Below are positions 5,319 to 35,645 of a DNA stretch of 36,257 bases, piece by piece. Source of the stretch: Thermovibrio sp. (GTDB lineage Bacteria > Aquificota > Aquificia > Desulfurobacteriales > Desulfurobacteriaceae); assembly GCA_015488335.1 (NCBI GenBank), contig WFNZ01000057.1:1-36257 (forward strand), in the 5' to 3' direction. A program made the position numbers and the translations under genes. The notes under the pieces are model-generated. The model was not told the DNA's origin and made no database searches. It saw only the letters and a list, made by a program, of their open reading frames with translations. Positions within the stretch are counted from its first letter, which is position 1; every line of letters starts with the position of its first letter.

Positions 5319-5993
5319 ATGGGGTTGAAAGTCATGAACCTGGTGATAGTTTCTGTTGTTATTTTCATCTTAATTTCACTGTACCTTGTATGGCCTATTA
5401 TTCGCCAGAAAGATAGGTTCATATTCAGTGAAGATGAGCTGAAAAGGAGTTTGCAGGAGATTTATAAGAATGTTAAAGGAGAAGTTTTTGTCCATGCAGG
5501 GGAGGCCAATGTTAAAACTTATTCTCAATTGAAACCTGTAATTGAGAGTTTTCTCAACAAGAATCCACAGAATAGAGTTATTTTCGTTATAGGACCAATT
5601 ATTTCTATTAAACCAGAAATATACAAGCGGTTACAGAAGAATAAATTTAGTGATTTAAAAGTGGAAGAATTGCACCCTCTTTTTGATTTACTCTTTAAAT
5701 ATCCGGATAAAGTTAATATTTATTATAAAAAAGATGACAGTTTCAAAGATATAAACCACTTTGCTATAGGTGGTAATTACCTGTATATGGAGGCTTTTCA
5801 TAAGCCACTTCAGGAGAGGAAAGCCATACTTGTAGAGAGCCCTGTGTCAAGTCTGCGGAAAAAATATGATAAATTTAAAAAATTACTCTTAAATAGTAAA
5901 AGCAAAATAATTAGATTAAGTCCTGATAAAGAAAAGTTAAAAAAACTAATAGAAAGTGGACAAATAAAGTTCAGTGACTTCCGGGCTGCTTAG
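5319..5993 (+). CDS. Unknown membrane-anchored protein, possibly a degenerate PLD-like domain
   Basis: A 224-aa protein with one N-terminal membrane segment (about residues 6-26, then WPIIRQKDR) and a cytosolic or periplasmic domain rich in Lys and Ile. The region VFVHAGEANVKTYSQL...VIFVIGPIIS and a later NHFAIGGNYLYME followed by H resemble the layout of phospholipase-D-like domains, but a proper HxKxxxxD motif is absent. I treat that as a hint, not a call. The start is either ATG 5319 or ATG 5334 (MNLVIV), neither with a strong ribosome site. Codon use is strikingly A/T-rich (many AAA, AAT, ATA), unlike feoB or ppa, which suggests later acquisition or low expression. It is followed by 14 bases and the broken gene at 6008. 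Confidence 0.6.
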   Translation: MGLKVMNLVIVSVVIFILISLYLVWPIIRQKDRFIFSEDELKRSLQEIYKNVKGEVFVHAGEANVKTYSQLKPVIESFLNKNPQNRVIFVIGPIISIKPEIYKRLQKNKFSDLKVEELHPLFDLLFKYPDKVNIYYKKDDSFKDINHFAIGGNYLYMEAFHKPLQERKAILVESPVSSLRKKYDKFKKLLLNSKSKIIRLSPDKEKLKKLIESGQIKFSDFRAA

Positions 5994-12498: not shown

Positions 12499-12699
12499 AT
12501 GGGAGAAATTATCATAAAGGTTCCGGGAGACATTAAAGAAGTTATAGAGGTTTCCGACTACTCGGTTGTTAAAGAGATACTGAAGCTGAAAGATCGTACT
12601 CCAAGAAAAGAATGGAAAGAGAAATTTAAAAAAGGAAAAGAAAAACTGTTAATAGAGGACGTTTTTGCAGATGAGGATCTGAGCTGGTGGGAGTGGTGA
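12499..12699 (+). CDS. Antitoxin-like protein of a MazEF-type pair
   Basis: A 66-aa charged protein in the usual antitoxin position just before a MazF-like toxin. The N-terminal half (MGEIIIKVPGDIKEVIEV) is strand-like and the C-terminal half is Lys/Glu-rich, ending in an acidic tail with tryptophans (DEDLSWWEW) that could fill the toxin cleft. I see no clear AbrB, RHH or Phd DNA-binding motif, so the call rests mostly on context. ATG start with GGGAGAAG about 8 bases upstream. It overlaps the toxin by a few codons. A weak inverted repeat, GCATA/TATGC at 12456-12471, lies upstream and could be an operator. Confidence 0.65.
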   Translation: MGEIIIKVPGDIKEVIEVSDYSVVKEILKLKDRTPRKEWKEKFKKGKEKLLIEDVFADEDLSWWEW

Positions 12700-13019
12700 A
12701 GGTTGAGCAGTATTCTGTCTGGCTTGTAAATTTAGACCCTACCGTTGGTTCAGAGATAAGAAAAACCAGACCGGCTCTCGTAATCTCCCCAGATGAGATG
12801 AACGAGGTTTTGAAAACGGTTATAGTAGCTCCGATGACAACTAAAATTAGAGGTTGGCCGACGAGGGTAAAAATAAATTTCCATGGGAAAGAAGGAGAAA
12901 TAGCTTTAGACCAGATAAGGACAATAGATAAAAGAAGACTTGTTAAGTTCTTAGGAAAGATTGACCCGTCTAAAGTTTTAGAGGTAAAAGCCGTTTTAAA
13001 AGAGATGCTCGTTGATTAA
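12687..13019 (+). CDS. MazF/PemK-family toxin (endoribonuclease)
   Basis: A 110-aa protein of the MazF family, which cleaves mRNA at short specific sites when its antitoxin is lost. The signature is complete: VWLVNLDPTVGSEIRKTRPALVIS at about residues 10-33 with the catalytic-site arginine and PALVIS strand, then VIVAPMTTKIR, and GEIALDQIRTIDKRRL near 70-85. The GTG at 12687 is used here (TGAGG 10 bases upstream); GTG 12696, overlapping the antitoxin stop as GTGA, is equally possible and gives MKVEQYSVW. The 3' end is only 4 bases from the convergent transporter gene. Confidence 0.85.
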   Translation: MGVVKVEQYSVWLVNLDPTVGSEIRKTRPALVISPDEMNEVLKTVIVAPMTTKIRGWPTRVKINFHGKEGEIALDQIRTIDKRRLVKFLGKIDPSKVLEVKAVLKEMLVD

Positions 13020-18908: not shown

Positions 18909-19802
18909 ATGGCAGAAGGATACAGCTACAGCGAAAGGCAGCCTCAAGTGATGAAAGACTACGTTTACGTTCTTGGAGAGGCTGTAAAGAAGGCGCCGGA
19001 GCTCCGGGGCGTTCCAACCGGCGTAAAAGGATTAGATGATCTTTTTTTCAAAGTTGAGGTTGAAGATGGGAAACCTGTCCGCAAGCCCTTAGGGGGAATT
19101 CCCGAATACGCCGTTGTAAACCTTACGGGAATGCCCGATACCGGTAAGAGCCTTATGGCCGAACAGTTCACGATAAAACAGGCCTCTATGGGGCAGAAGG
19201 TCTGCTTTGTAACGGTTGAGAGCCCTGCAAATTTCGTTGCAGCGGGGCTGAAGGAGAGAGCTCTGGCAATGGGGGTAAACTTTGAGGAAATTGAGGATAA
19301 CATCATCCTGATAGATGCGGCCAGCAACTCAAGGCTGAGAGACGACATCCCTACAATGCTTGATACCCTTGCTTACGTTTACAGAACCTACCACTGCCAC
19401 AGAACGGTGATAGACTCAATTACGGGGCTATATGAAGCGAAAGAGATGCTTGCCCGCTCAATCGTAAGAGCTTTCTTTAACTTCATGAAGAAGTGGTATC
19501 AGACCGCCATCTTCGTTTCACAGAAGAGGAGCGGACACGACGAGCTCTCCGCAGAGGCCGCCGGAGGCTACGCCGTAGGACACATTGTAGACTGCACAGT
19601 GGTTCTATCAAAAGAGATTCTCCTTTCACCTTCAAGGGCAAGGGCTTTCAAGAAGGAGCTCGGAGACATTCTGAGACTTTTCAGGATAGACGGCTGCAGG
19701 CTCTGTGGTCACGATACGAGGCTCCACCTGATGGAGATTACAGAGCTTGGCCTGGTTGAGATAAAAGAGCCACTTGTTGAATACCTGAGGGGAAGGAAGT
19801 GA
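18909..19802 (+). CDS. KaiC/RecA-like ATPase with C-terminal zinc-knuckle-like motif
   Basis: A 297-aa single-domain RecA-superfamily ATPase of the KaiC/RAD55 type. PTGVKGLDDLF at 36-46 is typical of the family entry, Walker A is GMPDTGKS at 74-81, and the Walker B-like strand is RTVIDSITG. A GGYAVGHIVDCTVVLSKE segment resembles KaiC strands. The C-terminal part contains CRLCGHDTRLH, a possible metal or RNA-binding knuckle. No second KaiC domain is present and no kaiA or kaiB is near, so a clock role is not suggested. ATG start, AGGAGG just upstream, 9 bases after the mutase. Its stop overlaps the next start (GTGA). Function unknown. Confidence 0.8.
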   Translation: MAEGYSYSERQPQVMKDYVYVLGEAVKKAPELRGVPTGVKGLDDLFFKVEVEDGKPVRKPLGGIPEYAVVNLTGMPDTGKSLMAEQFTIKQASMGQKVCFVTVESPANFVAAGLKERALAMGVNFEEIEDNIILIDAASNSRLRDDIPTMLDTLAYVYRTYHCHRTVIDSITGLYEAKEMLARSIVRAFFNFMKKWYQTAIFVSQKRSGHDELSAEAAGGYAVGHIVDCTVVLSKEILLSPSRARAFKKELGDILRLFRIDGCRLCGHDTRLHLMEITELGLVEIKEPLVEYLRGRK

Positions 19803-20248
19803 AAACAGTTTCAGTTATAGGTGATGGGGGAGCTCCCGAGGGGAGTCTCCTCTACGAAACAGCAAGAGAAGTAGGGCGGCTTGTTGCAGAGAGGGGATAC
19901 GTTCTAATTACCGGCGGGCTTTTCGGCGTTATGGAAGGGGCATCAAGGGGAGCAAAAGAAAAAGGGGGACTTACCGTTGGAATACTTCCACACTATGAAA
20001 ACCTCTCTAATCCTTACGTTGACATTAAAATTCCTTCAGGAATGGGTCATGCAAGAAACGTTATAGTTGTTTCATCGGCAAGTAAAATAGTAGTTGCAGT
20101 TGGGGGAAACTACGGAACTCTCAGTGAAATAGCCCACGCATTAAAGCTCGGGAAAAAAGTTGTGGGCTTTAGAACGTGGGAGATAGAGGGAATTGAGAAC
20201 TATGAAAATAGTAAGGACTTTGTTGCTTACCTTAGTTCTCTGCTTTAG
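19799..20248 (+). CDS. TIGR00725-type LOG-like Rossmann protein
   Basis: A 149-aa protein related to the LOG/lysine-decarboxylase-like superfamily. It shows VSVIGDG at the start, LITGGLFGVMEGASRGAKEKGG, and the family loop VGGNYGTLSEIAHALKLGK, which corresponds to the PGGxGT nucleotide-binding motif. True LOG proteins release cytokinin-type bases from nucleotides, but this short group has no proven activity. The GTG start overlaps the previous stop by four bases. Its 3' end overlaps the next gene by about 47 bases. Fold call firm, function unknown. Confidence 0.82.
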   Translation: MKTVSVIGDGGAPEGSLLYETAREVGRLVAERGYVLITGGLFGVMEGASRGAKEKGGLTVGILPHYENLSNPYVDIKIPSGMGHARNVIVVSSASKIVVAVGGNYGTLSEIAHALKLGKKVVGFRTWEIEGIENYENSKDFVAYLSSLL

Positions 20249-21497
20249 CTTTGGCCTTTTTAGTAAGGTTTTACCAGAAACAGATGCAGGAGTTAAAAAT
20301 AAACCTTCTCCGCCTGTGTCGGTTTATAACCTTCTTCTGAAACTTGAAGAAGATTTAAAGTCAGGAAAACCCAAATCCACCATTCTTTTAGACCTGAGAC
20401 AGATTGAAAAGGCTAAAGGAAGTCTTCCTGTTTCTTATATACCCGATTTAAACTACTTGATGGGTTCGCAGGTAGAGAGAGTTCCAACGACAGAACTTAC
20501 TCTTTTCAAAAAGTTGGCCTATTACATCTATCCGTTGGAAGTTGCTCTTAAAGTTTTTCTATTTCTTCTCCTTTTTTATACGTTTATCTTCTATTTTCAG
20601 AATACTGAAATCCAGCCTCTTATGAAGAGAGTCCTTACTGTAGCTGGAGTTTCCTTTTTAGTTTTGTCTTTTGTTGTCAATATTGGCTCTCTGATTTATG
20701 TTGTTGTAGGGTTTGGTTTTATACTTTTAGCAGTTTTGAAGAAAAAACGTTTAAGTTTCTACTTATTATTAGCTGCTTCTCTCCTTTTTATTTCACAAGT
20801 AATTTACGATAATGCTTTTCAAAGAGTAGAGTCAGACAACTTACTGTACTACATCAAAGTAAGTAGAGACGGTTATGCTCCAGACTATCTAATTAAGAAA
20901 GTTTTTTTGGATGAGAGAAGTTCAACTGTTGAAAGCGTAACTTCTCAGCTTGCCCTTGGCAAAGTTGATGCGGTTAAAAGGCTTGAAAACTTAAAGTTCT
21001 CTGATCCTCTTCGTCAGTCTATAGTTTTTAACGATTACGGTTACGTCTACTTTCTTTTAGGGGATTTTAAGAGAGCTCTCTCTCTCTTTAAGAGCGCTTT
21101 CAAGCTCTACCCTTCTCCAGAGTTAAAGTACAACCTCTACCTGACCTACTCTTCCCTTCTCAAGTTAGAGGAAGCCAACCGTTTAAAGGGCGAACTCCTT
21201 AAAAAAGGAATTTCAGTAGAGAAACTGCCGCCTGTCCCTGTTCTTATTCACCTGTCTGCTCCTCTGCCGGGTTATGTTTTCCCGTTTGATTACCTTATCG
21301 GTTTTCTGTTAGGAATTCTTGCTGGCGTAGTCTTCGCCCGGTTTTACCTGGCTACTTTTGGCAATTTTGAGCCGGAGCTCCTTTTAGTTCCCGGTATGAG
21401 AGCGTTTATAAACTCTCGCGTAAGACACATTTTCCTTGCATCCCTTATAGTTTTCCTCGTTAATATAATCTTAGGAAGATTGATATGCAGCGTGTAA
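20202..21497 (+). CDS. Unknown inner-membrane protein with TPR-like segment
   Basis: I do not recognise this 431-aa protein. It starts with a signal peptide or anchor (MKIVRTLLLTLVLCFSFGLF) and has a periplasm-like stretch to about residue 110. Then come about four closely spaced membrane segments (about 112-205), a soluble part with a TPR-like pair (DYGYVYFLLGDFKRALSLFKSAFKLYP, then PELKYNLYLTYSSLLKLEEA), and two more membrane segments near the C terminus. I chose ATG 20202 with GAGGG 11 bases upstream; TTG 20193 is possible. It overlaps the upstream gene by 47 bases and the downstream one by 13, so the three are coupled. A role in envelope assembly is plausible but unproven. Confidence 0.72.
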   Translation: MKIVRTLLLTLVLCFSFGLFSKVLPETDAGVKNKPSPPVSVYNLLLKLEEDLKSGKPKSTILLDLRQIEKAKGSLPVSYIPDLNYLMGSQVERVPTTELTLFKKLAYYIYPLEVALKVFLFLLLFYTFIFYFQNTEIQPLMKRVLTVAGVSFLVLSFVVNIGSLIYVVVGFGFILLAVLKKKRLSFYLLLAASLLFISQVIYDNAFQRVESDNLLYYIKVSRDGYAPDYLIKKVFLDERSSTVESVTSQLALGKVDAVKRLENLKFSDPLRQSIVFNDYGYVYFLLGDFKRALSLFKSAFKLYPSPELKYNLYLTYSSLLKLEEANRLKGELLKKGISVEKLPPVPVLIHLSAPLPGYVFPFDYLIGFLLGILAGVVFARFYLATFGNFEPELLLVPGMRAFINSRVRHIFLASLIVFLVNIILGRLICSV

Positions 21498-22327
21498 AGG
21501 GGCGGCTGAACAGCTTAGATGATTTAATAATTTTTATTGATAGATTAAAAGAGACGGGTGGGCTTTTAGACCTTTATCTTCCCTATTTTAATGAGGAAGT
21601 AGAGATCTGTTACGATGGAATAAATTTTCACCTCTCTACAAATATCTCAGATTTTCCAGAGAAGAAGGCACTGAAAGTTTTTATAGAAAAGTGGCTTTTA
21701 AACGACCTATCCCCTGAATTTGAGTTTATAGAGGGAGAGCAGTGTACATCTGGAATACCGGTTTTTGAAGATGAGCTGCTTCAGGTTATTAAAGACCCTT
21801 TTTTGGAGATGGTGAAGGAGCTCCCCTCCTACTTTGAAATAACAAAGATAGACGTTAAAAGAGTTCCTTCGTTTTTGGTGGCTCACTGGACTGCAAGACG
21901 GCCTGTTAGTAGAGAAGAGGTTTACAGATACGGCTTGACTCTCTCTGACATTTTAAGGTATATTGAAGCAGGTTTAATAGAAATTAAACAATTTACGGTT
22001 ATGGAGAGTTTCCCCTATAAACTTAGGCTTTTTGTTCAGGCTCTGGCTCTTCTGGTGGTTATCTACTTTGCTCTCCCTTTGGGCTATTTGAAGTTTAACC
22101 GACTGAAAGTTCCAGAATCTATCAACTGGGGACTGAGAGACCAGATAGTAAAAGGCAAAGTGAGGGAGAAACTGCCGGTTAAGGGGTGTTTGCGAACCAA
22201 CTTCTACTTGATGGGAGATAAGGTCGTCAATCCTGGAATTGACGGAATTGTCGGAACAGGAGACGACATTGCTGTTAAACTCCCTGACAGCGGTTACAGA
22301 CCTGTATTTGCCCTTCCGGTGAAGTAA
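21485..22327 (+). CDS. Unknown single-pass membrane protein
   Basis: A 280-aa protein I cannot assign. Residues 1-180 look like a soluble cytosolic region with mixed helices and strands (LNSLDDLIIFIDRLKETGG at the start, VSREEVYRYGLTLSDILRYIEAG later). A single membrane segment follows (about 186-204, FVQALALLVVIYFALPLGY), then a short extracytoplasmic tail ending NPGIDGIVGTGDDIAVKLPD. That last piece resembles the glycine-aspartate loops of calcium-binding or pilin-like tails, but a family call is not justified. It begins inside the previous gene and ends in TAATG shared with aroK, so it is tightly coupled on both sides. Confidence 0.7.
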   Translation: MQRVKGRLNSLDDLIIFIDRLKETGGLLDLYLPYFNEEVEICYDGINFHLSTNISDFPEKKALKVFIEKWLLNDLSPEFEFIEGEQCTSGIPVFEDELLQVIKDPFLEMVKELPSYFEITKIDVKRVPSFLVAHWTARRPVSREEVYRYGLTLSDILRYIEAGLIEIKQFTVMESFPYKLRLFVQALALLVVIYFALPLGYLKFNRLKVPESINWGLRDQIVKGKVREKLPVKGCLRTNFYLMGDKVVNPGIDGIVGTGDDIAVKLPDSGYRPVFALPVK

Positions 22328-22866
22328 TGAAAGTAGTTTTGATAGGTTTTATGGGTAGTGGCAAGTCAACGGTAGGAAAACTCCTTTCAAAAAAGACCTC
22401 TCTACCTTTTGTAGATCTTGATTCGGTTATTGTTGAAAGAGAAGGTAGAACCATTCCAGAGATTTTCAGAGAGGAAGGAGAAGAGTTTTTCAGAGAGTTA
22501 GAAAGGGAAATGTTAATCTCTGAACTTCGTAGAGAGGGAAGTTTTGTCCTCTCTACCGGAGGTGGAGCTCCTGCCTACAGGAACAACATGGAAGTTATAA
22601 ACTCACTTGCCACTTCTGTTTTCCTCTACGCTGATTTTGAAACCCTATACGGCAGGATTTCAGGGGACGGGAATAGACCTCTCGCTTCCCTTGAGAAGGA
22701 GAAACTGAGGGAACTCTACCAGAAAAGGCTTCCCTTTTACAGAAAAGCCCACTTTACAGTTGACACAACGGGAAAAACGCCAGAAGAGGTTGCCGAAGAA
22801 GTTATTTCACTCTTATCCGTCGGGAAAGGTAAACCCAACCAAGAAGGGCAAGGAGGCCAGACATAG
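22327..22866 (+). CDS. aroK: Shikimate kinase
   Basis: Phosphorylates shikimate at the 3-hydroxyl with ATP, the fifth step of aromatic amino-acid synthesis. At 179 aa it is normal length. Walker A is GFMGSGKST at 7-15. The shikimate-binding block is STGGGAPAYRNN near residue 78 with the conserved GGG, and DLDSVI and RPL are also in place. The C-terminal tail past residue 160 (SVGKGKPNQEGQGGQT) is unstructured-looking. It is produced by the 65 bases that overlap the convergent UPF0104 gene. ATG overlaps the previous stop by one base. It is the last gene of the operon that starts at thpR. Confidence 0.94.
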   Translation: MKVVLIGFMGSGKSTVGKLLSKKTSLPFVDLDSVIVEREGRTIPEIFREEGEEFFRELEREMLISELRREGSFVLSTGGGAPAYRNNMEVINSLATSVFLYADFETLYGRISGDGNRPLASLEKEKLRELYQKRLPFYRKAHFTVDTTGKTPEEVAEEVISLLSVGKGKPNQEGQGGQT

Positions 22867-23701
22867 TAAAGAGAAGAAGGTGAAAGTAGAAGGCTACTGT
22901 TAGAGCGTAGCTTCCCTTAAATCCTAAAAGGGCAAAGCCTCCAACAAGACCTGCCTCGTAAGTTCCAAAACCGCCAATGCTGTGAATGGGTAGAACCGTT
23001 GTCAGCTCTCCGAAAGTCGCTGCAAAAGTGCTCTCAAAGAAGTTAAGGTTCAGCCTTCCTGCCTTCATTATGAAGTAAAAGGCGGTGAACTTTGTAAGCC
23101 AGTTGAGGAGGGAATAGAGGAAAACAAAAATAAGGTTCCGTGCCGACTTGAACTCGTAAAAGAAGAAAAAGAGGGCTGAAGCGAAGCCGAAACGCTTTTT
23201 TAAAAGTTTTAAAAGTTTAAAACCCAAAATTAACGTTAGAACTATGAGAATACATAGAAATAAGGAGACCCAGAGGAACTTCCTGTTATTTACCGAAACC
23301 CCAAACGTTGCAATCGTGAACAGGATTGAGAGGGAAAGTAGGTCAAAGAGCCTTGCAACAACAAGGGCTGCAGAGGAGATTACGCCTTCAACTCCAAATA
23401 GCTTTTTGAGGATTATCGGAAAGGAGGCTTCCCCTGAGCGAAAAGGGAGTAAGTTGTTAAAAAAAGTGTGTACAGCCATAACTGCTGCAAGGTCTTCCGT
23501 TTTGATTTGAGGAAAGAAGAGCGTAAATCTCTTTGCCCTGAAGTAGTAGGTAAGGGTATAGAGGAGAAGAGAGAGGATGAGGAACGGAAGGTAGAGCTCT
23601 CCTAAAATCCTCTTCAGGTTGTGAAAAACGTCGTACTCGTAGAGGAAGTAGAGGAAAACGGCAAGAATTATTAAGGAAACAGCTAAACTACCCCTCTTCA
23701 A
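22802..23701 (-). CDS. UPF0104 / lysylphosphatidylglycerol synthase-type membrane protein
   Basis: A 299-aa polytopic inner-membrane protein with about eight hydrophobic segments, matching the membrane (flippase-like) domain of the MprF/UPF0104 family without the catalytic domain. The signature IHSIGGFGTYEAGLVGGF lies near residue 245, and FFNNLLPFRSGEASFP near 75 is also characteristic. Such proteins are thought to move lipids or lipid-linked intermediates. It is last in a three-gene minus-strand operon, overlapping the glycosyltransferase by 14 bases. A role in flipping the sugar-lipid made upstream is a reasonable inference. Its 3' end overlaps aroK tail-to-tail by 65 bases. Confidence 0.82.
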   Translation of the reverse strand: MKRGSLAVSLIILAVFLYFLYEYDVFHNLKRILGELYLPFLILSLLLYTLTYYFRAKRFTLFFPQIKTEDLAAVMAVHTFFNNLLPFRSGEASFPIILKKLFGVEGVISSAALVVARLFDLLSLSILFTIATFGVSVNNRKFLWVSLFLCILIVLTLILGFKLLKLLKKRFGFASALFFFFYEFKSARNLIFVFLYSLLNWLTKFTAFYFIMKAGRLNLNFFESTFAATFGELTTVLPIHSIGGFGTYEAGLVGGFALLGFKGSYALTVAFYFHLLLFTMSGLLALLGWVYLSRRIRVK

Positions 23702-24653
23702 CGTTGAGAGCTCTCCTTACAACGTAGGGTTTCTTGTTCTGGGATTCAAAGTAGATCCTCATCAGCATCTCACTTATCAGGCCTGTTGTGAACATCTGAA
23801 TTCCGGCAAGGATGAACATAACAGAGATGATGAGCAGAGGCCTGTTCCCTATGGAGTGGCCTGTTAACTTCAGGATTACAAGGTAGGTAAAGGGGAGAGC
23901 TCCCAGCAGAAACAGAACTATCCCCAGGAGACCGAAGAAGTGGATGGGCTTCTGGAGAAACTTCTTCATAAACCAGATGAAAAAGAGGTCGGAGATAACT
24001 TTAAACGTCCTTGAAATTCCGTACTTTGACTTCCCGTAGATCCTAGGGTGGTGCTCAACGGGTATCTCAATAATCCTGTCAACGGAAGTTACTGTTGAGG
24101 CAAGGGCTGGGATGAACCTGTGGAGCTCCCCGTAGAGCCTAACCCTCTTTATTACATCACTCCTGTAGGCCTTCAGCGTGCAGCCGTAGTCGTGGATCCT
24201 TACGCCCGTTAACTTTCCAATCAGCCAGTTTGCAATTTTTGACGGAAGCTTCCTTGAGATTGCTGCGTCTTTTCTGTTTTTCCTCCAGCCGCTGACTACG
24301 TCGTAGCCCTCCTCAATCTTCTCAAGGAGCCTTGGAATGTCTTTGGGATCGTTCTGGAGGTCTCCATCCATAGTAATTATTACGTCTCCCGTTGCGTAGT
24401 CCATTCCGGCAACCATTGCAGGAGTCTGGCCAAAGTTTCTGGCAAACTCAATAATCTTAACCTTTTTGTCCTTTTTCGCCAGCTCCTCTAAAATCTCCTC
24501 TGTTCTGTCTGTGCTTCCGTCGTTTACAAAGATTATCTCGTAGTCGTAGGGAAGAGAATCAAGAACCTCTTTCAGCCTCTCGTAGAGAATCGGAACGTTC
24601 TCCTCTTCGTTGTAAACGGGAATAACAACAGAAACCTTCTTAACCTTTTCCAT
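23688..24653 (-). CDS. Family 2 glycosyltransferase, DPM1/ArnC-like, with two C-terminal membrane segments
   Basis: A 321-aa GT-A enzyme that moves a sugar from a nucleotide donor to polyprenyl phosphate. Typical features are VSVVIPVYNEEENV at the start, FVNDGSTDRT near 45, the DxD metal site MDGDLQNDP near 96, YGKSKYG near 213, and two membrane segments after about residue 233. This layout is that of ArnC, GtrB and dolichol-phosphate mannosyltransferase. The sugar is unknown. It overlaps the ArnT-like gene upstream and the flippase-like gene downstream by 14 bases each. The trio forms a neat make, flip and transfer set, probably for lipid A or another envelope polymer. Confidence 0.92.
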   Translation of the reverse strand: MEKVKKVSVVIPVYNEEENVPILYERLKEVLDSLPYDYEIIFVNDGSTDRTEEILEELAKKDKKVKIIEFARNFGQTPAMVAGMDYATGDVIITMDGDLQNDPKDIPRLLEKIEEGYDVVSGWRKNRKDAAISRKLPSKIANWLIGKLTGVRIHDYGCTLKAYRSDVIKRVRLYGELHRFIPALASTVTSVDRIIEIPVEHHPRIYGKSKYGISRTFKVISDLFFIWFMKKFLQKPIHFFGLLGIVLFLLGALPFTYLVILKLTGHSIGNRPLLIISVMFILAGIQMFTTGLISEMLMRIYFESQNKKPYVVRRALNVEEG

Positions 24654-26199
24654 AGAGCCTCTCCTTCGGGTAGTTGGATATTACAACTATGGAGTGTTTG
24701 GGAAGGAGCTCCCGCCTTTCATCTATCCTGTAGTATTTAATTCCTTTAAGTTTTTGGAGTCTATTTTCCCTCGTAATCACAACAACGGGTTCTTTACTCT
24801 GAAGGAGTTTTTCAACAGTTCTGACGTTTAAATCCCTTAATCTACCTTCCCTGTAGTAGTAGACAATTTCGGGGCTTGAGAAGTCTAAAAAGACAACTCT
24901 ACACTCTTTGCAGTGCTCTTTAATTTCTCTAACTTCTTTCCCTATGAAGGGTTTTGCCCTCAGCGGTTCAAGTGCTGGCAGCGTAACCCACTTAAAGAGA
25001 ACCATTCCCGTCAAAAAACCCAAAGTTATCGGTTTAAGGGCATCCTTCGTCCAGATTGCCCACCACACGCCTATGAGTGGGGGAATCAGGAAAAGAAGAC
25101 CTACAGGTGGCCAGTGTTTCAGTTCCCAGAACACACCACCAGCAAGGGCAAGAGTTGTGAAGAGAAAGGCTGTAAGGTAGAGTGAGAGCTTTTCCCTCAG
25201 GTTGAACAGATACCAGGTGGTTATAACGGCAAAAGCGGGGAAGGATGGAAGGAGGTAATGGGCAAGTTTTGTGTGTGCTATTTGGAAGAAGAGAAAGACT
25301 GTAAAGAACCAGACTGTTGAAAACTCCAAAACGTTGTCTCCCCAAACCCGTTTTTCCTTGAACAGATAGTAGAGTGCAAACGGGAAAAATAGAGAAAAGG
25401 GGAGGTAGAGCCAGAAGTAGTTGACAAAGTAGTACCACCAGGCCGTTGGGTGGCCGGGAATTTTCCCTGTAAATCTGTGGATGTTGTGGAAAATTATGAA
25501 GTCTTTGAAAAACTGGTAACCGTGTTTTTGGAGAATTGCTCCATACCAGGGCAGAACAACGGCAAAGTAGATTCCAAACCCTGAAAACCAGGGAATCTCC
25601 TTCAGAGTTTTAATAAGGTCTCTCCTTAAAGCGAGATAGAAAATGGCAATGAGACCGGGAAGAACAAGCCCTACAGGTCCTTTTGTAAGGGTTGCAAGGC
25701 CTGAAAAGAGGAAGGCAAGCCTGTAAAAGTTTGCGCTTTTCCTGTGGTATCCCTCAAAGAAAAAGATGAGAGCTCCCTCTATGAAGAAGGTCAGGGCGAT
25801 ATCTGGCATTGCAACAGAGGACATAACGATGAAGTCAAGGAGTGAAAGGAAAACTAAAGAAGACCAGAATGCAAACCTCTCACTCCTCCACCTTGAGAGC
25901 CACCAGTAGAGAAGGAGAACGGCGAAAACGCCGCACAGTGAAACGAAAAACCGGCCGCCAAACTCGTTAATTCCAAAAATTTTATACCCAAGGGCTATCA
26001 GCCAGTAGATCAAGATCGGTTTATCAAACCTATACTGGTAGTTGTAGTAGGGGGTGATGTAATCTCCGCTCTTTACCATCTCATAAGCGGCCTCAAGGTA
26101 TTTAGGCTCGTCCTTGTCAAAGGCAGAATAAAGGCCATTTGGTGCCACAAGGAGAATGAACGAAACAATTAAGAGAATTAACAGGTTTTTCCTTTTCAT
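24640..26199 (-). CDS. ArnT-like membrane glycosyltransferase (GT39/GT83, PMT type)
   Basis: Integral membrane transferase of about 519 aa that uses a polyprenyl-phosphate sugar as donor. The N-terminal segment NGLYSAFDKDEPKYLEAAYEM holds the acidic pair of the first periplasmic loop (DE), which binds the donor phosphate in ArnT and PMT enzymes. FDKPILIYWLIALGYKIFG and TKGPVGLVLPGLIAIFY are also typical. About eleven membrane segments precede a soluble C-terminal domain. I chose ATG 26199; a GTG at 26211 would add four residues, and neither has a strong ribosome site. It is first in the operon with the DPM1-like transferase and flippase-like protein, which probably supply its donor. Confidence 0.88.
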   Translation of the reverse strand: MKRKNLLILLIVSFILLVAPNGLYSAFDKDEPKYLEAAYEMVKSGDYITPYYNYQYRFDKPILIYWLIALGYKIFGINEFGGRFFVSLCGVFAVLLLYWWLSRWRSERFAFWSSLVFLSLLDFIVMSSVAMPDIALTFFIEGALIFFFEGYHRKSANFYRLAFLFSGLATLTKGPVGLVLPGLIAIFYLALRRDLIKTLKEIPWFSGFGIYFAVVLPWYGAILQKHGYQFFKDFIIFHNIHRFTGKIPGHPTAWWYYFVNYFWLYLPFSLFFPFALYYLFKEKRVWGDNVLEFSTVWFFTVFLFFQIAHTKLAHYLLPSFPAFAVITTWYLFNLREKLSLYLTAFLFTTLALAGGVFWELKHWPPVGLLFLIPPLIGVWWAIWTKDALKPITLGFLTGMVLFKWVTLPALEPLRAKPFIGKEVREIKEHCKECRVVFLDFSSPEIVYYYREGRLRDLNVRTVEKLLQSKEPVVVITRENRLQKLKGIKYYRIDERRELLPKHSIVVISNYPKERLYGKG

Positions 26200-26261
26200 T
26201 ACCGTTTCCACCGGTTAAATTCTGTGGTAAGAAAGTATAGCCTAAGGCGTGGAGAGTAAAG

Positions 26262-26516
26262 ATGGTTTACAGGAAGCTCTTGAAGTGCTCAACCTGTGGG
26301 AATGTTGGAGAATTTGAATACATAGGCTCCCGAGATGTTAACAGAGAAGGAGAAGTTTCGGATATAATCGGCTCTACCTCTATGTGGATAAGCTACTACA
26401 GGTGCCCTAATTGTGGTTCTGTAGAGGTTGAGTTCGGTCCTGTGGGAGAGAGGCCAGACGTTCCAGAGGAGGTTTTCAGGGAAGTTGGAAAAGACGGGAA
26501 AGAGGTGGGAGAGTAG
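26262..26516 (+). CDS. Small zinc-ribbon-like protein
   Basis: An 84-aa protein with two CxxC pairs, CSTCG near residue 9 and CPNCG near 48, about 39 residues apart. This is a typical zinc-ribbon arrangement. Between them lies a short acidic and aromatic stretch (EFEYIGSRDVNREG, MWISYYR). The C-terminal tail is acidic. The ATG has GGAGAG about 5 bases upstream. It starts divergently from the ArnT-like operon, 62 bases apart, and its 3' end overlaps the next gene's start. The two plus-strand genes are therefore likely co-transcribed. Function unknown; metal binding is inferred. Confidence 0.7.
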   Translation: MVYRKLLKCSTCGNVGEFEYIGSRDVNREGEVSDIIGSTSMWISYYRCPNCGSVEVEFGPVGERPDVPEEVFREVGKDGKEVGE

Positions 26517-28095
26517 CTTTCTTAGATGGTTTCTCTCTCTTCTTTTTATCTCCTTTCTGGTTAATATAGGAGTTTTAGTTCTTATTCACGAGGAGCCCCG
26601 GCGGGGGATTATCACCTTTGAGATGCTTAAGAGCCACAACTTTCTCCAGCCTACAGTTCTTGGAATTCCCTACTTTAAAAAACCCCCTCTCCACGAGTGG
26701 ATAACGTCTCTGTTTTCCGTCCTTTCCGGAACGGTCTGCGAGTTCTCTCTCAGGCTTCCTTCCGCTTTATCTGTTGTTTTAACCTCTGTCCTGATTTTCT
26801 TGGCGATGAAGAGAAGTTTTGGCGAAAGGATTGCCCTGTTCAGTAGCCTTATTTACCCCACCTTCTACGTTGTTCTGATAGGCTACGGGACAAAGTGTGA
26901 GCCAGATACACTTTTCTCCTTCTTTGTTTCTTTTGCCGTCTTTAGCTGGTTTTACCTGTTTGAGAGGGGAAGGGAGCTCCCCGCCTGGTTCTCAGGCTAC
27001 TTCTTCACATCCCTTGCTCTCTTAACAAAAGGGCTTCCGGCGTTTCAGTTTTTTCTGTTCTTTGTATTTGCCTATTTTCTGGTAAAGAGGGACTTAAGAA
27101 AACTCCTTTCCATTCAGCATTTAATAGGCCTAGTTTTAGGTCTTTCTCCCTTTCTCCTCTGGCTTTTTGCAGTTAAGACGGATCAGGCAGTAAAAACCCT
27201 CTTTTCAGAGGTTCTCTCAAGAGCTCCCGGTAGAGTTTCAGGGATAAAAGCCCTGAAAAACTACTTCACCTACCCATTCAGGCTCATTTTGGCAACGTTT
27301 CCCTGGTCGTTTGTTTTCATCTACTCTTTGCTTAAAAAGAAAAGAGATTTACTGAAACTTCCAGGAGGTGAGAGTTTAAGAGTTTTTCTTTTTGCCTTTA
27401 CCCTTGATGCCCTTCTTTACTGGCTCTTTCCGGGAAGCCGGTTGAGGTATCTGATTCCTGCACTTCCCCTTCTTTCAGTTATTCTGGCCTACTACCTGGT
27501 TGACTATCAGATAGTCCACAAGAGAGCTAAAGAGATTGTACGGTTTACAGCAGAAATTGTTGTTCCTTTGGCTATAGTTGTTGGAGTTATCGTAACTAAA
27601 AATCCATCAATCATACTTGAATCAACCATAGAGTTTATTTTTATTCTCTACGCCATCTATTTCTTGTTTCTTCCAAGGTTTAACTTTACCTACATTGTTA
27701 TCCTTATCTCTGTTCTAATGCTGATTTTAAGAGGATTCTACAGCTCTTACTACTACCCGATTGCCCAGTTTAAATACCCCCCTGTTAGGGAAGTTGCCGG
27801 GGAGATCGTTAGAGATTCTGCAGGGTATCCCCTCTACACGAAAACGACATACCTTCAGCTCTGCTTTTACGTTGAGAGGGGAAGGAATGAAATCTTAAAG
27901 TTCAACCCCAAGCCACCAGAAGGAGCCCTCTTCCTTTCTCAAAGGCCGGAAGGTAACGTTTTAAAGGAATACAGGTTGGGAAGACACAGGTTTTACCTCT
28001 GTTCTTACGGTATTACCTCTTTAAAGCCTCAAGGAGCTCCTGAAGGCCAGAAGAAGCGCTCTCCCTCAGAGTTAAATCACAGTAGGGGGAAATAG
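26485..28095 (+). CDS. Second ArnT-like membrane glycosyltransferase (GT39/GT83)
   Basis: About 536 aa, same architecture as the transferase at 24640 but on the other strand and clearly diverged. After the first membrane segment it reads EEPRRGIITFEML, the acidic first-loop motif of PMT-type enzymes, and then PYFKKPPLHEWITSLF. TKGLPAFQFFLFFVFAYFL mirrors the second motif. About ten membrane segments and a soluble C-terminal tail follow. I chose TTG 26485 because AGGAGG lies 12 bases upstream and the protein then starts just before the first membrane helix; the open frame reaches back to 26428. The last 83 bases overlap the convergent sirtuin gene. Confidence 0.83.
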   Translation: MEKTGKRWESSFLRWFLSLLFISFLVNIGVLVLIHEEPRRGIITFEMLKSHNFLQPTVLGIPYFKKPPLHEWITSLFSVLSGTVCEFSLRLPSALSVVLTSVLIFLAMKRSFGERIALFSSLIYPTFYVVLIGYGTKCEPDTLFSFFVSFAVFSWFYLFERGRELPAWFSGYFFTSLALLTKGLPAFQFFLFFVFAYFLVKRDLRKLLSIQHLIGLVLGLSPFLLWLFAVKTDQAVKTLFSEVLSRAPGRVSGIKALKNYFTYPFRLILATFPWSFVFIYSLLKKKRDLLKLPGGESLRVFLFAFTLDALLYWLFPGSRLRYLIPALPLLSVILAYYLVDYQIVHKRAKEIVRFTAEIVVPLAIVVGVIVTKNPSIILESTIEFIFILYAIYFLFLPRFNFTYIVILISVLMLILRGFYSSYYYPIAQFKYPPVREVAGEIVRDSAGYPLYTKTTYLQLCFYVERGRNEILKFNPKPPEGALFLSQRPEGNVLKEYRLGRHRFYLCSYGITSLKPQGAPEGQKKRSPSELNHSRGK

Positions 28096-28819
28096 GTGTT
28101 TCCTGAGGATTTACCTCAATGAGGAGAGCTCCCTTTCTCTTTGCAATCAGGGGTAGCGATGCGGCCGGCTGAACCACTCCAGAGGTTCCAACAACTATGA
28201 GAACGTCACAGTTTTCAGAGAAACCAAAGGCCTTCTCAAGGGCATCTTCAGGTAAACTCTCTCCAAACCAGACGACTCCGGGACCAACAATCTCGCCACA
28301 ATTTGGGCACCTGGGGAGTTCCCCTTCATCAACCCTTCTGAAAACCTCTTCCTTCAGCTCCTCCTCAGAGATAGTTCTCAGAAAGCTCTTTGAAGCAAGG
28401 GGATAGAGATTTCCGAAAGCCTCTGCATGGTAGTGTTTTCCACAGAAACGGCACTTCCCGTCAAAGATGTGGCCGTGGAGCTCCACAAACCTTTTATTTC
28501 CTGCTTCTCTATGGAGGCCATCAACGTTTTGGGTAATATGCAGGAACTCTGGAAAGAACTTTTCCATCTCTACGATTGCGTAGTGAGCCAAATTAGGCCT
28601 TGCATTTGCAATCAAATGCATTCTCCACAAATACCACTTCCAGACCAGATTGGGATTCCGGGAAAAAGCCTCAAAAGTTGCAAGCTCAGTTGGGTTAAAC
28701 TTGTTCCAGAGCCCATCTTTTCCTCTAAATGTGGGGATTCCACTTTCAGCACTTAAACCGGCTCCAGAGAGAACACATACTTTTTCCCGCTTATTTAGGT
28801 GTTTAATAAGTTCAACCAT
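28013..28819 (-). CDS. NAD-dependent protein deacylase, Sir2 family (class III-like)
   Basis: Sirtuin of 268 aa that removes acyl groups from lysines using NAD. The NAD-binding GAGLSAESGIPTFRG is at about 19-33, TQNVDGLH near 96-103, and catalytic H115 is in ELHGHIF. Zinc ligands are C123 and C126, then C171 and C174. VVGTSGVVQPAASLP is the late Rossmann block. A YxxR motif (Y63, R66, in KWYLWR) matches the pair that gives CobB and SIRT5 their preference for acidic acyl groups, so desuccinylase activity is likely. ATG start with AGGAGG about 10 bases upstream. Confidence 0.93.
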   Translation of the reverse strand: MVELIKHLNKREKVCVLSGAGLSAESGIPTFRGKDGLWNKFNPTELATFEAFSRNPNLVWKWYLWRMHLIANARPNLAHYAIVEMEKFFPEFLHITQNVDGLHREAGNKRFVELHGHIFDGKCRFCGKHYHAEAFGNLYPLASKSFLRTISEEELKEEVFRRVDEGELPRCPNCGEIVGPGVVWFGESLPEDALEKAFGFSENCDVLIVVGTSGVVQPAASLPLIAKRKGALLIEVNPQETPISPYCDLTLRESASSGLQELLEALKR

Positions 28820-28891: not shown

Positions 28892-29404
28892 TTGTATTGG
28901 AGTAAATTTTATTCCCTGGAGAACCTTTCCACTTTACCAGATGGAAAGTTTGTTTTCAGCATCTACCTTCCAGAGGATTTGTTTTTTGCCCTTGTAAACG
29001 CCAGGGGTGTTAGAACTTATTGGTTGGGAGTTCTAAACAGCTCAACTCTGGGTAGAAAACATGGGAAAGAACTTGTAGTAAGGTTTTATCTCCATCACTA
29101 TAGAGGTTTTACAGTTAGTGTTATCACCAGAATTCTCTATATGGGAATAGCCAACTCCATGAAAAAGGAGGTACCGACTCTTTTAACCCACAATCCCTGT
29201 CTCAAGTATCTCCTCTCTGATGGTATAAAACTCGGTATAGCTGTAAAGCCTGTACCAAATTTTGAAGACGGAAAAGCAGAGATAGAGAAATTCCTCTCAG
29301 AAACCTGTGGATTCTGTTTTCCTGCTTCCTGTGGGTGTGGTTTATGTGAAGAACTAGGAGGAATTTCCGTTCCTACGTTTATAGGCCGTACAGAGATCTG
29401 CTAA
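28892..29404 (+). CDS. Unknown protein with C-terminal cysteine cluster
   Basis: A 170-aa protein I cannot assign. The first 135 residues look like a globular alpha/beta domain with many aromatic residues and no membrane segment or signal peptide. Near the C terminus five cysteines occur as C-x2-C-x4-C-x-C-x2-C (in ETCGFCFPASCGCGLCEELGG), with a sixth Cys as the last residue. Such a cluster could bind zinc or an iron-sulfur centre. The only usable start is TTG 28892 behind GGGGGGAAG. It is divergent from the sirtuin gene, and tRNA-Leu(CAG) lies 1 base after its stop on the other strand. Confidence 0.65.
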   Translation: MYWSKFYSLENLSTLPDGKFVFSIYLPEDLFFALVNARGVRTYWLGVLNSSTLGRKHGKELVVRFYLHHYRGFTVSVITRILYMGIANSMKKEVPTLLTHNPCLKYLLSDGIKLGIAVKPVPNFEDGKAEIEKFLSETCGFCFPASCGCGLCEELGGISVPTFIGRTEIC

Positions 29405-34499: not shown

Positions 34500-35645
34500 T
34501 TACACCTCTACCTCTTTCAGAAGTTGCTCTGTAATGATATCAAGGGCTCTCTTTCTGGTTTCGTCAAAATCTATGTTTTCAACTACAGGAACGCCCTTTT
34601 CCTTTGCCTTGCTGTAGATAAAGTCCTGAATCTTCCTTATGGCTTTAAAGTTTTTCAGGTATTTCTTGCTGGTTCTCTGGGAGCTCTTCTCCCTTGATGA
34701 GAACCTTCCCCTGTGGAGCTCCTCGTCTAAAGTTGTAAGAATTATATGGACAACGTAGGCTTTATCCTTAAAGAGATCTGCAACTCCCGGTATCAGGTGA
34801 ATTCCCTCAACAACCAAACTCACGTTCTCTTTTATCGCCCTGTTTACAACGGCTTTTACTCCCGTTAGAACCTTATCGCTCTGGTCTAAAAACCCGTAGA
34901 TTATCCTTTCTTCTTTAGGAGTCTCTGAAAGCTGAGGGAGGAAATCCCCTGCCTCGTAAGAGGAAACGTGGAGGGAAGGGGCAAGCTCCTTTGAAACCAT
35001 CTTCCTCATAACTTCCCTTATGGAGTCTGTAGAGGCCGTTCTGTTTATCTCTAAAGTTCCGGCAAGCTCAGAGGCGAGCCGCGATTTCCCTACTCCCGTA
35101 GCTCCGCCTATCAAGATAATTATCGGCTTCTCTAACTTTTTGGCCTTCCGCCACAGGAGGTATCTCTTTGAGAATTCTTCACCCAACCTCTTTTTAATGA
35201 GCTTTGCCGTTAGCTGTCGGAGCTCCGCTCTCTTAACTCTGAACTTTCCCTTCTTTACGAGTGTGTCGTGAACCTCTTTCGCAATCTCAAAAGCTTCATT
35301 AGTATCAACTCCAGCAGAGCGGATAGAGGCCGCAAGAATTCCCCTTGAAAAGGGAACGAAGGCCTTTCCACACTCCTCACAGACAAGAACTTCTCTTTCT
35401 TTAACCTGAGCCTTGTATCTGTTGGCAACCTTTTTACCGAACTTTTCTTTAAGGGTTTTAAAAACCAGGTCTATAAGTTCGTCTGTTGTAACTGTTCCAC
35501 TTAACTTTGCTGAAACGGAGTCTGCCACTCTGTAGGCGTCTTCAACCGATAGTCCCACTTTCATTAAAGACCTTGCAAGAACACCCTTAGAGAAGGGATA
35601 CTTTTCGCCTGAACCGTCTACTACAAACCGTTTTTTCTTTGCCAT
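34500..35645 (-). CDS. 2-phosphoglycerate kinase with two N-terminal ATP-cone domains
   Basis: A 381-aa kinase. The P-loop is GGATGVGKS at 180-188, followed by RTASTDSIREVMRKM and LVVEGIHLIPG near 286. This is the arrangement of archaeal 2-phosphoglycerate kinases that make 2,3-bisphosphoglycerate, the precursor of cyclic 2,3-diphosphoglycerate. Two successive ATP-cone-like modules precede it (about 7-80 and 85-165; KYPFSKGVLARSL and FVPFSRGILAASI are their matching cores), with a CEEC pair between them. The cones suggest nucleotide-level control. ATG start; the mltG end overlaps it by 25 bases. The heat-solute role is inference. Confidence 0.85.
   Translation of the reverse strand: MAKKKRFVVDGSGEKYPFSKGVLARSLMKVGLSVEDAYRVADSVSAKLSGTVTTDELIDLVFKTLKEKFGKKVANRYKAQVKEREVLVCEECGKAFVPFSRGILAASIRSAGVDTNEAFEIAKEVHDTLVKKGKFRVKRAELRQLTAKLIKKRLGEEFSKRYLLWRKAKKLEKPIIILIGGATGVGKSRLASELAGTLEINRTASTDSIREVMRKMVSKELAPSLHVSSYEAGDFLPQLSETPKEERIIYGFLDQSDKVLTGVKAVVNRAIKENVSLVVEGIHLIPGVADLFKDKAYVVHIILTTLDEELHRGRFSSREKSSQRTSKKYLKNFKAIRKIQDFIYSKAKEKGVPVVENIDFDETRKRALDIITEQLLKEVEV

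Follow-up and report, generated by a model that had tools for sequence, protein, structure and literature searches.

The priming and regulation of pseudopilus assembly are still poorly understood. In the pseudopilins of type II secretion systems (T2SS), calcium is said to play the role that disulphides have in pilins (PMC5131608, citing Korotkov 2009). PATAN domains are reported to bind PilB, the extension motor of the type IV pilus (T4P), in Synechocystis (PMC10519157), and binding of PilB by PixE has been put forward as a hypothesis (PMC7690835). T4P control in Myxococcus involves the tetratricopeptide repeat (TPR) protein SgmX, which has 14 TPRs, and PATAN proteins (PMC11580455). The published genome of Thermovibrio ammonificans is reported to contain pili genes and a type II secretion pathway that is complete (PMC5441870). 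Here we analyse a stretch of 36,257 nucleotides from a Thermovibrio sp. (assembly GCA_015488335.1, contig WFNZ01000057.1, positions 1 to 36,257 of the forward strand; the window), in which two overlapping genes, O1 and O2, encode membrane proteins that are probably subunits of one joint inner-membrane complex. O1 carries a TPR domain; O2 ends in a tail resembling that of the major pseudopilin GspG and probably begins with a divergent PATAN-like domain. Among the matches listed for the literature on PATAN/DUF4388, on pseudopilin calcium and on the pili and type II secretion of the family, we found no description of either protein.

The gene pair

O1 (20202..21497, + strand) encodes a 431-aa membrane protein and O2 (21485..22327, + strand) a 280-aa membrane protein. 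The two genes overlap by 13 nt (21485..21497, + strand), and O2 overlaps by 1 nt the shikimate kinase gene aroK (22327..22866, + strand; Pfam SKI, E=2.1e-44). The coordinates, strand and overlaps of O1 and O2 agree with those given in the initial annotation of the window, which was made from the letters alone. Both genes are present in the same 20 of the 22 family genomes and both are absent from G007 and G017. In all 20, they are adjacent and overlap by 7–19 nt (with start codons picked by us, as also for the TIGR00725/O1 overlaps below), and aroK follows directly downstream. A set of 61 related genomes yields O2 and full-length O1 in the same 20, which all belong to the family of the window; outside that family, four more O1 matches in this set cover the TPR only. 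With profiles of 20 rows run on 136 genomes of the phylum, O2 is again found in 20 and full-length O1 in the same 20, all Desulfurobacteriaceae. The O1 profile matches 70 of the 136, and in the 50 genomes outside the family the listed matches lie within model positions 224–390, in and around the TPR. Beyond the phylum, one scan of genome contigs with a single O2 query returned one close relative (86% O2 identity), in a Desulfurobacteriaceae metagenome-assembled genome, and a DNA search of plasmids gave no match. Within this phylum the pair is specific to the Desulfurobacteriaceae; distant homologues may exist elsewhere. A neighbourhood search across the Aquificota had been proposed with the initial annotation; in the genomes covered here, the two genes were neither separated nor found one without the other at full length.

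Both are real genes under purifying selection. Comparison of the window genome with G003 gives dN/dS values of about 0.10 (O1, 0.152/1.447) and 0.055 (O2, 0.074/1.339), with dS (1.3–1.4) near saturation. Across the 20 genomes, O1 distances and O2 distances between pairs of genomes have a correlation of 0.93; controlling for aroK leaves a partial correlation of 0.82 (n=20), and controlling for aroK, KaiC and PGM leaves 0.66 (n=13, the genomes with long enough PGM and KaiC within the fetched stretch), the latter value being reached by 0 of 2000 permutations. The aroK–O2 correlation given KaiC and PGM is 0.32. The divergence of O1 and O2 therefore co-varies beyond that of their neighbours, which supports a shared task and perhaps contact. 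Taken with the constant adjacency and overlap and the joint absence from two genomes, this bears out the suggestion of the initial annotation that the tight overlaps point to a joint product. The pairing is well supported, and we infer from it a physical complex of the two proteins; the envelope complex that had been suggested is compatible with these data.

The conserved unit does not extend upstream. In the window, the run on the + strand is PGM (17514), a KaiC-like gene (18909; NCBIfam TIGR03878, E=2.7e-131), a TIGR00725 gene of the SLOG/LDcluster4 type (19799..20248, + strand; NCBIfam TIGR00725, E=1.2e-40), O1, O2 and aroK (22327), with successive overlaps of 4, 47, 13 and 1 nt from the KaiC-like gene onward. 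The 47-nt overlap between the end of the TIGR00725 gene and the start of O1 (20202..20248, + strand; ATG at 20202) recurs in 13 of the 15 genomes whose locus holds both genes, and measures 56 nt in G002 and 80 nt in G018. In the g7 genomes (G011, G016, G019 and G021; 4 of the 20), other genes stand upstream of O1, and PGM, KaiC and TIGR00725 were not found in the stretches there. G012 has no TIGR00725 between KaiC and O1, and its pair and aroK are still together. Since the upstream block varies and O1-O2(-aroK) is constant, the latter is the conserved unit and the TIGR00725 gene is upstream context outside it; the conserved-looking operon of the initial annotation holds in this narrower form.

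In G017, aroK directly follows PGM-KaiC-TIGR00725. The G007 genome is a single contig, in which TIGR00725 is truncated by an insertion of two genes and aroK comes next, with neither O1 nor O2 ahead of it. The insertion (L174 9028-11474, G007:C1 ~1055027-1057473) carries genes of 212 aa and 532 aa and resembles an IS607/IS605-type element. No full-length O1 or O2 was found elsewhere in G007 or G017. The two genomes belong to one genus, the third member of which (G012) has the pair, and the absence may represent one or two events. aroK is kept without the pair in both and also in the sister-family genomes G022 and G023. The order and tight spacing of O1, O2 and aroK, constant in 20 of 20 genomes, would be expected if the pair served shikimate or aromatic metabolism together with aroK; the four genomes with aroK and no pair argue against such a role, and the membrane, TPR and pseudopilin-like features are ill-suited to a soluble pathway. 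We regard this explanation as very improbable.

The tail and span of O2

O2 has one hydrophobic span (residues 182–200; 22028..22084, + strand), in agreement with the single-pass protein with a Gly/Asp tail described in the initial annotation. The GspG-like part of the tail (residues 229–264; 22169..22276, + strand) contains a PGxDxxxGTxDD loop, present in strict form in 15 of the 20 orthologues and in loose form in 17. The loop-less O2 loci of G004, G009 and G014 (L053 9395-10219, L057 8114-8923 and L062 3000-3812, respectively) offer a natural test of the need for the loop.

The tail matches GspG at the profile-profile level. The C-terminal profile of O2 (residues 178–280, 20 sequences) aligns over 35 columns with the GspG of related genomes (27 of 28 loci, L134 being omitted) at 95.9% (hhalign). 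Against either O2 C-terminal slice, 14 control families (13 neighbouring genes and O1) reach at most 1.4%; three DUF4388 sets give 0.2–9.6% with the tail, and 150 column-shuffled O2 tails reach at most 6.4% with GspG. The matched segment surrounds the calcium loop (VP-KDAWGNDFIYISDGKHFTLISPGPDGEEGTDDD in the GspG of the window genome, compared with, for example, LPVKDAFFNNIYYKNGYLISPGPDRKLGTSDD in the O2 of G016). For the reverse search, a tail profile of 18 of the 20 C-termini (G009 and G014, which have lost the motif, were omitted; G004, also motif-less, was kept) was run on 24 whole genomes, 20 of which have gspG by PF08334. Besides O2, it matches gspG in 15 genomes, where its hits coincide with those of PF08334 (E 5.7e-4 to 0.019, per single genome); once O2 is set aside, gspG ranks first or shares first place in these 15. 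As a yardstick, the O2 of G014, which is divergent and did not contribute to the profile, is matched at E=3.4e-4. Five other weak matches are to places other than gspG (G012:C46, G014:C36, G023:C57, G024:C10 and G013:C1).

An N-terminal prepilin signal was not found in O2. N_methyl is not among the families matched by the 20 O2 proteins, and ESFPYKLRLFVQALALL, the sequence that leads up to and into the span, contains no G|FTLxE-like site. The GspG of the window genome has N_methyl (E=3.6e-9). The orientation of O2 is not decided by charge, with 1–4 K/R on the N-terminal flank of the span and 1–4 on the C-terminal flank over the 20 orthologues. We prefer N-in, given that O2 shows no signal peptide and that its tail looks like a domain located outside the cytoplasm, and O2 is taken below as N-in, C-out; invariant cysteines in the head (C42 and C87) could argue against this orientation.

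The head and middle segment of O2

The first 90 residues of O2 (21485..21754, + strand), with invariant C42, W70, F79 and C87, are probably a divergent PATAN-like domain, as judged by profile comparison with DUF4388 (PF14332), which we take to be the PATAN domain. The combined DUF4388 profile has 36 sequences (29 of 30 loci, one having failed the length filter, 6 paralogues and 1 long protein). Residues 1–98 of O2 match it at 50.8% with a score of 30.9 (hhalign), over residues 3–53. The nulls stay lower: at most 4.7% and 21.2 for 150 column shuffles, 6.6% and 22.3 for the reversed profile, and at most 2.4% and 19.4 for 68 control-family windows. A longer O2 slice (residues 1–178) gives 36.3%, and single-subfamily DUF4388 profiles give 0.5–10% with the head. 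The initial annotation had recognised no family. This remains correct for hmmscan against Pfam, NCBIfam and PHROGs, where O2 finds nothing credible and O1 generic TPR only; at the profile-profile level it gives way to the GspG-like tail and the weaker DUF4388-like N-terminus. Isolated hits, such as GapS6a in 2 of 20 members (best E=0.0022), and YvdT, the sole PDB sequence match of the O2 profile (E=0.03), were judged to be chance.

Models were made with AlphaFold2 (AF2) from two-sequence alignments, and their usable parts are the O1 TPR and O2 residues ~115–168 only. Residues 1–100 of O2 give predicted local distance difference test (pLDDT) blocks of 24–36. The segment of residues 111–170 (21815..21994, + strand) gives 57, 85, 84, 67, 56 and 59 per 10-residue block; residues 115–168 are the best-modelled part of the protein, confident only at ~121–140 (pLDDT 85, 84). 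In the model, residues 115–168 weakly resemble a winged helix. Comparison of the O2 model with the PDB (VIA-align) returns 14 rows with Z from 3.7 to 2.0, headed by the winged helix of RPC39 (Z 3.7); the upper rows include winged helices (RPC39, PriA), BirA stands at Z 2.2, and the others are mixed and weak. A winged-helix-like segment shortly before the span, a single span and an adjacent membrane partner would also fit a ToxR/CadC-like transcription regulator anchored in the membrane, with a winged helix in the cytoplasm and a periplasmic calcium-loop sensor in O2 and a ToxS-like partner in O1. However, the third helix of the segment (residues 153–163, LSDILRYIEAG), with one basic and two acidic residues, is unlike the usual DNA-recognition helix, an additional PATAN-like domain lies ahead of the winged helix, and O1 is far larger than ToxS. 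A regulator of this kind seems improbable to us.

The TPR protein O1

O1 has a signal-peptide-like start (by eye), an N-terminal helical region, four spans (residues 114–202; 20541..20807, + strand; from hydropathy), a TPR domain (residues ~255–335; 20964..21206, + strand) and two last spans (residues 365–428; 21294..21485, + strand) with a conserved PGMxxFIN loop between them. The polytopic character seen in the initial annotation is upheld by these six predicted spans. The TPR, also named there, falls below the Pfam gathering scores in the window protein (best E=5e-4), but TPR_1 and TPR_2 are matched by 20 of 20 orthologues at E up to 1 (best 1.3e-7), and by its match to a TPR model O1 belongs with the TPR proteins. 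Against the PDB, the O1 profile finds consensus TPR proteins (best 4.2e-45), and the rows shown consist of TPR proteins and of designs that use a TPR scaffold. The TPR domain is also the best-modelled part of O1 (residues 261–340, pLDDT 51–76 per 10-residue block). Because a KKKR stretch (residues 180–183, between spans 3 and 4) is expected inside and the signal peptide would be cleaved, the N-terminal helical region and the TPR are predicted to be periplasmic and the PGMxxFIN loop to lie on the cytoplasmic side.

Secretion and filament machinery in the family

Of the five T2SSE-family matches in the window genome (G000), two have the size of GspE/PilB and two that of PilT, and the fifth is under the cut-off. 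One of GspE/PilB size, GspE with MshEN, belongs to a T2SS-like cluster (L151 232-8410, G000:C9) that also encodes a GspC-like protein with T2SSC and PDZ domains, a secretin with GspD N0, GspF, PilM and PilO; the PilM- and PilO-family genes stand where GspL and GspM might be expected. gspG (L152 14155-14586, G000:C35) lies on a separate contig, with no other recognisable gsp gene in the 18 kb read. The same genome encodes a separate DUF4388 protein of 296 aa (L135 2926-3816, G000:C52). DUF4388 matches occur in 15 of the 22 family genomes and in none of the four g7 genomes, G014, G015 and G017. T2SSE-family matches over the cut-off are present in all 22, in G015 (62% complete) of PilT size only. 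In the PF08334 survey, which covered genomes other than G019–G021, gspG was not found in G017 (pair absent) or G015 (pair present), both of which are incomplete assemblies.

Proposed role

The most likely specific mechanism, which we nevertheless put forward as doubtful, is a family-specific inner-membrane complex of O1 and O2 that is accessory to the type II secretion or type IV filament machine. O2 would place a PATAN-like domain and a winged helix in the cytoplasm, cross the membrane once and end in a short periplasmic domain like the calcium-loop end of GspG, a topology that, with the preferred orientation, would be that of a prepilin left uncleaved and carrying a large head in the cytoplasm. 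O1 would contribute six spans, with its TPR and N-terminal helical region on the periplasmic side. The complex might be located at the base of the machine, where the O2 head could touch the assembly ATPase, as reported for PATAN domains and PilB in cyanobacteria, and the pseudopilin-like tail could dock on the base of the pseudopilus or report its state. The TPR of O1 may grip the O2 tail or a client, and assembly or secretion would in this way be tuned across the membrane.

A membrane complex of O1 and O2 with another task, for example in envelope stress or as a scaffold, that has recruited a PATAN-like head and, to serve as a stable domain in the periplasm, a GspG-like calcium-binding hairpin carries more weight than the accessory role, and among the readings considered we give it the largest share, though short of an even chance. 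The following findings favour it and weigh against the accessory role. The neighbourhood of the pair holds no link to secretion genes, aroK being the only constant neighbour. G007 and G017 keep ATPases of GspE/PilB and PilT size without O1 and O2, and since T2SSE-family matches are present in all 22 genomes, these two included, the pair is not needed for having them; G007 also keeps gspG. O2 and GspG do not co-vary: their partial distance correlation given aroK is 0.25 (16 genomes), or 0.02 without two g7 genomes, and −0.16 and −0.10 for the same sets given aroK and O1, in a test whose power is low with a GspG so highly conserved. The loop is lost in 3 of the 20 O2 proteins (G004, G009 and G014), with the rest of the tail kept and the pair persisting, and the tail could be a borrowed calcium-binding stabiliser without a filament role. 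Against the accessory role only, on the side of detection, hmmscan at E up to 1 finds T2SSG in 0 of 20 O2 proteins and DUF4388 likewise in 0 of 20, the tail profile misses gspG in 5 of the 20 PF08334-positive genomes (G011, G024, G025, G027 and G030), and over the full length of the proteins the AF2 models are of poor quality (mean pLDDT 37.7 and 43.1 for the two proteins). In favour of the accessory role, and against an unrelated task, one end of O2 has a secretion pseudopilin as the nearest relative found, and the other a domain for which binding to a pilus motor is reported. The T2SS-like cluster and the separate gspG of the window genome also count for the accessory role.

At its most specific, the accessory role would mean that the Desulfurobacteriaceae evolved a transmembrane 'dummy pseudopilin', a non-cleaved GspG mimic with its head on the ATPase and a TPR partner at its periplasmic end, acting as a previously unseen regulatory or priming element of the machine; we consider this quite unlikely. 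If the link to the machinery is true, one protein would combine a motor-binding-type head with a pseudopilin-type tail, a new coupling of a filament ATPase to a pseudopilin in a thermophilic lineage that branches deeply. The priming and regulation of the pseudopilus would then become accessible through a small, thermostable and tractable complex of two proteins. If the link fails, O1 and O2 remain two new membrane protein families that form a lineage-specific pair, with the caution that GspG-like tails exist outside pseudopilins.

Other genes of the window

After aroK, window positions 22802-28819 hold LPG_synthase_TM, GT2-like, two PMT-family and SIR2-like genes, which looks like a lipid/glycan-modification locus. 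The order from LPG_synthase_TM to the SIR2-like gene is kept in 12 of the 20 family loci; among the remainder, several are truncated where a contig ends. A PemK/MazF-family gene lies at 12687-13019 (PF02452, E=1.9e-31). Two open reading frames, 5319-5993 (224 aa) and 28892-29404 (170 aa), have no Pfam match at E up to 0.001; the 224-aa frame starts with a membrane-span-like stretch. Positions 34500-35645 encode one protein with an ATP-cone domain followed by an AAA/zeta-toxin-like P-loop domain.

Comparison with known systems

Regulators of the ToxR/CadC type have a winged helix before a single span, a domain after it and an adjacent partner gene; O2 has a winged-helix-like segment before its span and shares the other features. 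O2 differs from them in its extra N-terminal domain and in a helix at the recognition position that is not basic. With SgmX, the parallel is by analogy only: TPR and PATAN proteins both occur around T4P control, but MglA recruits SgmX at the pole of the cell, whereas O1 is polytopic and its TPR is predicted to be periplasmic. The DUF4388 (PF14332) proteins, among them the paralogue on G000:C52 and the cyanobacterial PATAN regulators PixE, PixG and LsiR, are matched by the profile over O2 residues 3–53, and by eye G6, W70 and F79 of O2 fall at the G...W..G.F positions of the family. Unlike these proteins, O2 is under hmmscan detection, is membrane-anchored, has two invariant cysteines and has no receiver domain. 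O2 is not a GspG (T2SSG, PF08334): it has ~180 residues before the span and no prepilin N_methyl motif, and the part after the span is much shorter and extends C-terminally past the loop. It shares with GspG a membrane helix followed by a C-terminal domain, and the loop segment of GspG from VPKDAWGN to SPGPDGEEGTDDD aligns with O2 residues 229–264.

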